From assembly GCF_024614185.1 (NCBI RefSeq), contig NZ_JAHTLF010000023.1:1-64000 (forward strand): a DNA stretch of 64,000 nt, written 5' to 3'. This DNA is from Nocardioides carbamazepini. Lineage in GTDB: Bacteria; Actinomycetota; Actinomycetes; Propionibacteriales; Nocardioidaceae. Both the position numbers and the translations under genes were made by a program. Positions 19,625 through 27,870 of the stretch are shown one piece after another (the stretch's first letter is position 1; each line of letters starts with the position of its first letter). A model generated the notes under the pieces. That model was not told the DNA's origin. It ran no database searches and saw nothing but the letters and a program-made list of their open reading frames with translations.

Positions 19625-19694
19625 TGTAACTATCTGTTGTTGCCCCTACCGGGCCCGTAGACCGGGGCGGTAGTGGCAACAACAGGTAGTTACA
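19625..19694. repeat. 70-nt near-perfect hairpin with 27-nt arms
   Basis: Left arm 19625-19651 and right arm 19668-19694 pair over 27 positions with one T-G and one C-T mismatch; the loop is 16 nt. The arm begins TGTAACTA and includes CTGTTGTTGCC. It sits downstream of the cholesterol oxidase stop (19708, minus strand) and upstream of the LigD-like gene. No T-tract follows on either strand, so it could be a factor-assisted terminator, a roadblock or a mobile palindromic repeat. Confidence 0.75.
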
Positions 19695-24939: not shown

Positions 24940-26577
<1,638 letters not shown>

Positions 26578-26588
26578 TCAGGTGGGGT

Positions 26589-26794
26589 TGAGTCGTCACA
26601 TCTGACCCGGTGAGTCGTCGCTTGTGACCCGGTGAGTCGTCGCTTGTGACCGCTTCAGTCGCCGCTTTCGGTCGTTGCCGGCGGCGAACGCCGAGGCTCA
26701 CGACCCGCCGCGAGGAAGCGACGACTCAAGCGGTCAGATCCGACGACTCAAGGGGTCAGATCCGACGACTCAAGCGGTCAGATGGGGCGACTCA
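26589..26794. repeat. Eight-copy 22-bp repeat array with exact dyad symmetry
   Basis: Four forward cores related to TGAGTCGTC start at 26589, 26611, 26633 and 26655 (last copy degenerate). Four inverted cores related to GACGACTCA start at 26720, 26742, 26764 and 26786. Spacing is exactly 22 bp within each half, and all four forward/inverted pairs share one centre at 26691/26692. TGACC recurs 10 bp after most forward cores and GGTCA before most inverted ones. The last unit abuts the -10 box of the gene at 26812. Confidence 0.9.
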
Positions 26795-26799
26795 ACGGG

Positions 26800-26805
26800 T
26801 ACGCT
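26800..26805 (+). promoter_or_regulatory. -10 box of leaderless promoter
   Basis: TACGCT lies exactly 6 nt before the GTG at 26812, and no ribosome-binding site is present. The adjacent 22-bp repeat array would occupy the -35 region. Confidence 0.5.
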
Positions 26806-26811
26806 GCCGAT

Positions 26812-27870
26812 GTGGCGAGCGCCGTGACCCAGGAGGTCCGCTTCTGCCGCACGGATGACGGTGTGCGGTTGGCGTGGGCGCGCCACGGGTCGGGTCCGCC
26901 GTTGCTCATCGTGTCTTGCTGGCTCAGTCACCTGCAGCACGACTGGCAGAGTCCGGTGTGGCGGCACTTCCTGGACGATCTCGGCGAGGTCGCGACCGTG
27001 GTGAGGTACGACGAGCGCGGGTTCGGGCTCTCGGAGTGGGAGGTCGCCGACTTCTCCCTCGAGCGGCGGCTCGCCGACCTCGAAGCGCTGGTGGAGGCCG
27101 CCGGTCTGGGCCGGTTCGCGGTGCTCGGGATGTCCGGCGGGGCGCCGGTCGCGGTCGCCTACGCACATGCCCATCCGGAGCGGGTGACGCGGCTGGTGCT
27201 CTACGGCGGCATGGCCGGCGGCGGAATCCAGCAGGAGGACGCGGCCGCCGAGGAGGCCTTCCAGGCGATGATCCGCGCCGGCTGGGCCCGGCCGGACCCG
27301 CTGTTCCGGCGGGTGTTCACGAACGCCTTCATCCCGGACGCCACCGAGGAGCAGATGGCCTGGATGGACGAGCTGCAGCGGACCTCGACCAACACCGAGA
27401 ACGCCGTGTGCAGCCGGGTCGCCCGGCACGAGGTCGACGTCCGCGGGCTGCTGCCCGCGATCTCCGCACCGACGCTGGTGCTGCACGCGGAGGGCGACCG
27501 GGTCGCTCCCGGCTGGGGCCCGCGGCTCGCGGCGGCCGTCCCCGACGCCCGGCTGGTCCTGCTCGACTCCCGCAACCACGTGCTGCTCGCCGACGAGCCG
27601 GCCTGGCCGGTGTTCCGTGCCGAGGTGACCGCCTTCCTCGCGGCGGACCGGGTCGTCGTACCGGTCGACCACCTCTCCGCCCGCGAGCGCGAGCTCCTGC
27701 TGCTGGCCGCCGAGGGGCTCGACAACACCGCGATCGCGGACCGGCTGACCCTGAGCGTGCGCACCGTCGAGCGGCACTTCCAGAACGTCTACCTCAAGCT
27801 CGGCCTGTCCGGGCGTACGGCGCGCGCGGCCGCCGTCTGTCGCGTGCTCGGCGTCGACCCGCGCGGCTGA
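26812..27870 (+). CDS. Alpha/beta-hydrolase domain fused to LuxR-type HTH
   Basis: 352 aa. Residues ~1-270 form an alpha/beta hydrolase: 'VRLAWARHGSGPPLLIVSC', 'VVRYDERGFGLSEW', nucleophile elbow 'GMSGG', then 'PTLVLHAEGDRVAP' and a late His in 'LDSRNHVLL'. The C-terminal ~65 residues are a LuxR/GerE HTH ('LSARERELLLLAAEGLDNTAIADRLTLSVRTVERHFQNVYLKLGL'). Such fusions are regulators whose hydrolase domain binds or cleaves a signal. GTG 26812 is preferred over the ATG at 26782, which lies within the repeat array, because TACGCT is 6 nt upstream. Target genes are unknown; the array suggests autoregulation. Confidence 0.88.
   Translation: MASAVTQEVRFCRTDDGVRLAWARHGSGPPLLIVSCWLSHLQHDWQSPVWRHFLDDLGEVATVVRYDERGFGLSEWEVADFSLERRLADLEALVEAAGLGRFAVLGMSGGAPVAVAYAHAHPERVTRLVLYGGMAGGGIQQEDAAAEEAFQAMIRAGWARPDPLFRRVFTNAFIPDATEEQMAWMDELQRTSTNTENAVCSRVARHEVDVRGLLPAISAPTLVLHAEGDRVAPGWGPRLAAAVPDARLVLLDSRNHVLLADEPAWPVFRAEVTAFLAADRVVVPVDHLSARERELLLLAAEGLDNTAIADRLTLSVRTVERHFQNVYLKLGLSGRTARAAAVCRVLGVDPRG

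Follow-up and report, generated by a model that had tools for sequence, protein, structure and literature searches.

The window is a 64,000-nucleotide stretch of the Nocardioides carbamazepini genome. Between a pruA-type gene and a gene for a hydrolase-LuxR fusion protein it contains an array of short repeats, in which direct units are followed by inverted ones. The features at this junction are:

24940–26577, forward strand: pruA-type L-glutamate gamma-semialdehyde dehydrogenase (TIGR01236), with its stop codon 10 bp before the array
26588–26667, forward strand: left arm of the array, four direct 22-bp units with cores starting at 26589, 26611, 26633 and 26655
26668–26709, no strand: centre between the arms, with the dyad at 26691.5
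26710–26796, reverse strand: right arm of the array, four inverted 22-bp units with cores at 26720–26728, 26742–26750, 26764–26772 and 26786–26794
26799–26811, forward strand: conserved stretch upstream of the hydrolase-LuxR gene, with a -10-like TACGCT (26800–26805), outside the array
26812–27870, forward strand: alpha/beta hydrolase with a fused GerE (LuxR) domain and a GTG start; taken to be a neighbour outside the system

The array in the window

The earlier note had described four forward and then four inverted cores at exact 22-bp steps, and both direct reading and a repeat search bore this out. The fourth forward core, at 26655, is degenerate (TCAGTCGCC), as is the fourth core pair; the last inverted core (26786–26794) is also degenerate (GGCGACTCA), and so is the innermost unit of the right arm. 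A TGACC/GGTCA half, which had been noticed in most units, is present in six of the eight and absent from the two innermost. The core pairs do share one dyad, placed by the note at 26691/26692, but with both arms spaced at 22 bp a single centre for all pairs is bound to result, and it does not count as independent support. The array was also said to run up to the -10 box of the next gene; it stops at about 26796, and the -10-like sequence lies outside it.

The RNA of positions 26578–26806 folds into one long hairpin of -147.5 kcal/mol (z -9.5), and no shuffled sequence folded as well. The window array thus has a stable hairpin behind a stop codon, a trait of intrinsic terminators. A terminator scan of positions 26400–27000, run on the window only, found 0 sites with a T-run after the stem. 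A search of Rfam with 10 loci gave five weak matches to unrelated families (miRNA and viral models), all below the gathering scores. Elsewhere in the window, a 27-bp near-perfect hairpin at 19625–19694, unrelated in sequence to the array, lies next to where an oxidoreductase-like gene ends.

DNA conservation with the closest hydrolase-LuxR orthologues begins at 26799, behind the array. A consensus promoter scan found no sigma-70-type promoter before 26812. The conserved GTACGCT and GTG start (26799–26812), with no visible ribosome-binding site, suggest that the hydrolase-LuxR transcript is leaderless.

A dispersed family and its dialects

In the genome from which the window comes (G000; 6.30 Mb, 25 contigs), the exact 22-bp unit pattern has 62 matches and the reversed control pattern has 0, far beyond chance. 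With up to two mismatches there are at least 115 matches against 2 for the control, a few of the 115 being tRNA or isolated matches. Twenty-nine further places were read together with the window copy: 26 are arrays, and four (L046–L049) are not, as L047 and L048 are tRNA-Met genes and L046 and L049 are isolated matches. L277 was left out of the analysis. The genome holds at least 26 dispersed arrays, window copy included, and across these 26 loci there are 132 chained units of the 22-bp family. The step within an arm is 22 bp in 72 of the 82 intervals, 21 bp in nine and 43 bp in one, with all of the 21-bp steps in L037 and the in-frame L042. The number of units per arm ranges from 0 to 6 and is often unequal within an array.

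The units of L042 (964–2946) lie inside a cobaltochelatase/Mg-chelatase-like gene, in a variable linker, in frame and at a 21-bp step (SDDSTVT SDDSTAT SDDSTVE). In L040 (2000–3190, contig C21) the left and right arms of a single array flank an AbiEi_4/DUF559 endonuclease-like gene; the stretch of G216 that matches L040 is divided between two contig ends (L147/L148).

The earlier note had proposed a search of related genomes for the unit. Among 215 genomes of the genus, the exact unit was found in three – its own genome (57 matches) and two others, G216 (28) and G209 (1). Fifteen of the 18 array regions in G216 (14 sites) could be aligned, across long flanking stretches, to array loci of G000, often with a different number of units, and three do not. 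The single unit of G209 sits at the L036 site. Five sites with arrays only in G000 were traced in G216: one is a hybrid of two dialects, one has a dialect B array, and three are array-free. In this tracing no counterpart was located for L132, and the flanks of L139 are 1,238 bp apart in G000. L030, L031, L037, L038, L039 and L141 had no counterpart in the sequence pieces compared.

The same layout is found in other lineages with other unit wording, here called dialects, a 32-bp family among them. This is seen at the site behind pruA, which was read in 20 relatives. G033 and G060 have arrays of dialect B (TTGAGTTGCC type) there; G166, G167 and G120 have arrays of the 32-bp dialect C (GACCCGGCAGAAAGTGGC); G149 has a tandem of another 22-bp unit, and G174 a different repeat. 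G216, G209, G144, G143 and G182 have no array, and the remaining relatives have other short sequence. One gene end in related species thus carries differing dialects or no array. Among the relatives examined, only G033 has pruA and the hydrolase-LuxR gene adjacent (166 bp), the junction that is marked by the array in the window; in the others the two genes are about 1–20 kb apart or on separate contigs. Another dispersed-looking repeat, of the GGTTGAGG...CCTCGAAACC type, was observed at or near the same gene end in L193 (G174) and L195 (G034).

Exact cores of dialect C occur in five of the 215 genomes (40, 20, 19, 12 and 3 matches), and exact dialect B also in five, with 1–4 matches each. Pairs of GACCCGGC at 32 bp are more widespread, occurring in 75 of the 215 genomes, but at least ten matches are found in just 16. 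The counts are 153 in G120, then 136, 133, 129, 116 in the genome of the window, and so on down to 11, against 0–5 for the reversed controls. With its 116 tandem 32-bp pairs, this genome therefore holds a second, larger repeat family. At five of its 32-bp loci the right half, which is AAGTGGC in dialect C, reads approximately GATTGAAC. An inverted arm is missing from two of these five loci (L316 and L319) and degenerate in L318. The dispersed arrays support in substance the new palindromic repeat family that the earlier note had offered as an alternative, although the palindrome is not obligatory, as the two single-armed arrays show.

Two 32-bp units were also observed in the linker of cobB in three species (L274, L241 and L272), with differing right halves; the genomes are G167, G144, in which the first core is degenerate, and G000, which has another right half.

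Gene ends, hairpins and conserved positions

Gene contexts were taken from a purpose-made simple gene finder at three score thresholds. The 22-bp arrays have 25 intergenic contexts, of which 13 are convergent and 11–12 tandem; the context of L022 turns divergent under stricter gene calling. For dialect C (n = 37), 24 arrays are convergent, 10 tandem and three inside genes, which means that 24 of the 34 intergenic arrays are convergent. The background of 180 junctions consists of 20 convergent, 142 tandem and 18 divergent ones, and for gaps above 40 bp (n = 81) of 10, 55 and 16. Of 38 cases in the 22-bp family, 31 have the array edge at most 20 bp from the adjacent 3' end, as do 52 of 58 in dialect C; the outermost unit contains the stop codon in 11 of 35 cases for the 22-bp family and 25 of 53 for dialect C. 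The arrays are thus a few bases from stop codons and enriched between convergent genes, with four intragenic exceptions (L042, L241, L272 and L255).

The 3' site of erpA was read at 30 loci. Fourteen have stems of 35–70 bp, near perfect palindromes, and at several others the hairpin is an ordinary one of 15–21 bp. For a lag test, 14 arms were picked by eye for long stems from the 30 loci, with L102 dropped as a near copy of L103. The arms differ strongly between species, yet they are self-similar at lag 22 (0.50 for the 14 arms); in nine arms without dialects A or B the lag-22 match is 0.456, and other lags give 0.18–0.30. At the erpA site, long hairpins with a 22-nt period replace ordinary short hairpins.

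Cores and spacing are conserved in the arrays, and the variable positions are free. At the variable positions of the 22-bp family, identity is 0.560 between facing units and 0.548 between non-facing units (permutation p 0.44; L037, L040 and L042 left out). The spacers of dialect C, with the innermost units left out, give 0.548 and 0.555, and adjacent units of the same arm 0.638. Facing units do not co-vary at the variable positions in either family, so the expanded arrays show no visible selection for pairing itself, although the stems at the erpA site are near perfect; base-pairing was rejected as the selected property at these positions. Folded singly, one unit of each family formed no hairpin (z -0.18 for the 22-bp unit, 1.45 for the 32-bp unit), and the left core of the 32-bp unit holds a short GCCG-ACC-CGGC complement that is visible by eye.

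Origin and role of the arrays

As described in PMC3733652, REP elements are dispersed, extragenic, near the 3' ends of mostly convergent or unidirectional genes, present in many copies, inverted, and have lineage-specific variants. The arrays resemble REP, BIME and REPIN elements in being dispersed, multi-copy, inverted and lineage-specific, and in being extragenic near the 3' ends of convergent or unidirectional genes, bar the four intragenic loci. Unlike REP and REPIN elements, they have unfolded units, a fixed tandem step of 22 or 32 bp, and apparently no GTAG-tagged hairpin; CGTC, a REP tag, lies inside the 22-bp unit and not at the foot of any unit hairpin. A Y1/HUH transposase (RAYT, PF01797) was found in none of 30 genomes, 16 of which have at least ten 32-bp pairs; a control of this search was positive in 5 of 14, one of them E. 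coli. Since the units are not hairpins and these 30 genomes have no Y1 transposase, the arrays do not belong to the REP/REPIN-RAYT system. A literature search at the level of search results found no description of such arrays.

The reading that we prefer, tentatively and with somewhat less than even confidence, is that the window array belongs to a dispersed, lineage-specific, REP-like family of 3'-end arrays, which is in concerted evolution and acts as a terminator or mRNA end. Each array consists of bipartite sites in a row at a fixed 22-bp step, every site having a left and a right core around three variable bases; usually the row is then repeated in inverted order, and the whole is placed directly behind a stop codon. 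Transcribed from either side, an array would fold into a long hairpin that follows each of the two converging genes, serving as a terminator or mRNA end, and a trans-acting factor would copy or read the dialect. The family would spread to gene ends and persist there as REP elements do, without a RAYT transposase, and since copies within a genome would be kept alike by concerted evolution, each lineage would have its own dialect. Transcription of pruA would stop at the window array, and the hydrolase-LuxR promoter would be shielded from it.

A role in ending transcripts is suggested by the position of the arrays, their replacement of ordinary hairpins and their fold, while the conserved cores with free spacers, the fixed step, the single-arm arrays and the turnover of dialects point to sequence-specific recognition or copying of the unit. 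The arrays resemble intrinsic terminators in lying between convergent genes and in that short GC hairpins can take their place behind erpA; they differ in that their units are common to many loci of a genome, in their stems of 35–70 bp and in having no T-run in the window. The absence of that T-run, the lack of co-variation between facing units, the single-arm arrays and the intragenic arrays all speak against a terminator.

A purely selfish miniature element – non-autonomous mobile repeats moved by a putative enzyme, with no host function – is a rather unlikely explanation. Because the arrays bring a stop codon and would do little harm at gene ends, they could be tolerated there. The patchy distribution and copy numbers, the orthologous sites that are occupied in one genome and array-free in another, the stop codons supplied by arrays and the arrays in protein linkers would all be expected of such an element. 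Against this, there is no Y1 transposase in the 30 genomes, sites persist while the dialect changes, and no target-site duplication, a trait of MITEs of DDE transposons, was seen by eye in the array flanks examined. IMG/VR had no match to the 22-bp tandem pattern or to a triple 32-bp pattern, plasmids had no copies of either family, and phages had none of the 32-bp family, so dispersal by phages or plasmids was rejected. The DUF559 gene of L040 was likewise rejected as the mobilising enzyme, as only one of the three DUF559 genes found, that of L040, lies between arms, and neither 22-bp units nor 32-bp pairs accompany the other two in the sequence examined; it is probably a passenger.

The arrays could also be double-stranded DNA sites for a fast-evolving, sequence-specific protein that acts as a road-block or insulator, with the hairpin a by-product of the inverted order. 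The conserved cores and step with free variable bases fit such a protein, as do the single-arm arrays, the steps of 22 and 32 bp (about two and three turns of B-DNA) and the dialects that shift together genome-wide. However, no candidate protein was found, and the narrow inner distance in dialect C (37–39 in 22 of 28 arrays) and the near-perfect palindromes at the erpA site look like selection for a hairpin; we judge this reading unlikely.

DNA uptake sequences (DUS) of Neisseriaceae have species dialects of a short motif and form inverted pairs at terminators (PMC3630211). The arrays have lineage dialects, inverted pairs at gene ends and a TGA within the unit, but for DUS that paper gives thousands of dispersed single copies, with counts such as 3770, against about 130 22-bp units in 26 loci, nearly all in fixed-step arrays. 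With hundreds of units instead of thousands, an uptake function is very unlikely. The resemblance to plasmid iterons that the earlier note had seen stands for the 22-bp direct repeats and goes no further, as the arrays are chromosomal, inverted and at many loci, with no replication gene beside the loci read.

The note's first proposal, a multi-dimer operator of the hydrolase-LuxR protein, was rejected as extremely improbable: although the window array adjoins a -10-like box in its own genome, the same array – in the note's own terms an argument against an operator if present at many unrelated loci – recurs at 25 other loci there, and in 18 of 19 orthologues the 300 bp upstream contain no array in dialect A, B or C. 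The orthologue in G216 is among the array-free ones although G216 has the dialect of the window array elsewhere, and the sole orthologue with an upstream array, in G033, has it in dialect B.

The arrays may belong to a genus-wide system, a reading that we consider doubtful. A fast-changing, sequence-specific factor, either a protein or a template, would write or read bipartite sites at a fixed step at gene ends, with a dialect for each lineage, and these would replace ordinary terminators. This would be a factor-dependent gene end or a class of spreading repeats in actinobacteria that does not use RAYT, and would be new either way. If so, gene ends in these bacteria hold repeats whose sequence turns over by lineage while their place and step stay constant. 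They would provide a natural experiment on what keeps dispersed repeats alike in the absence of any known transposase, and matching dialects to proteins would be a route to the factor for termination, insulation or copying.
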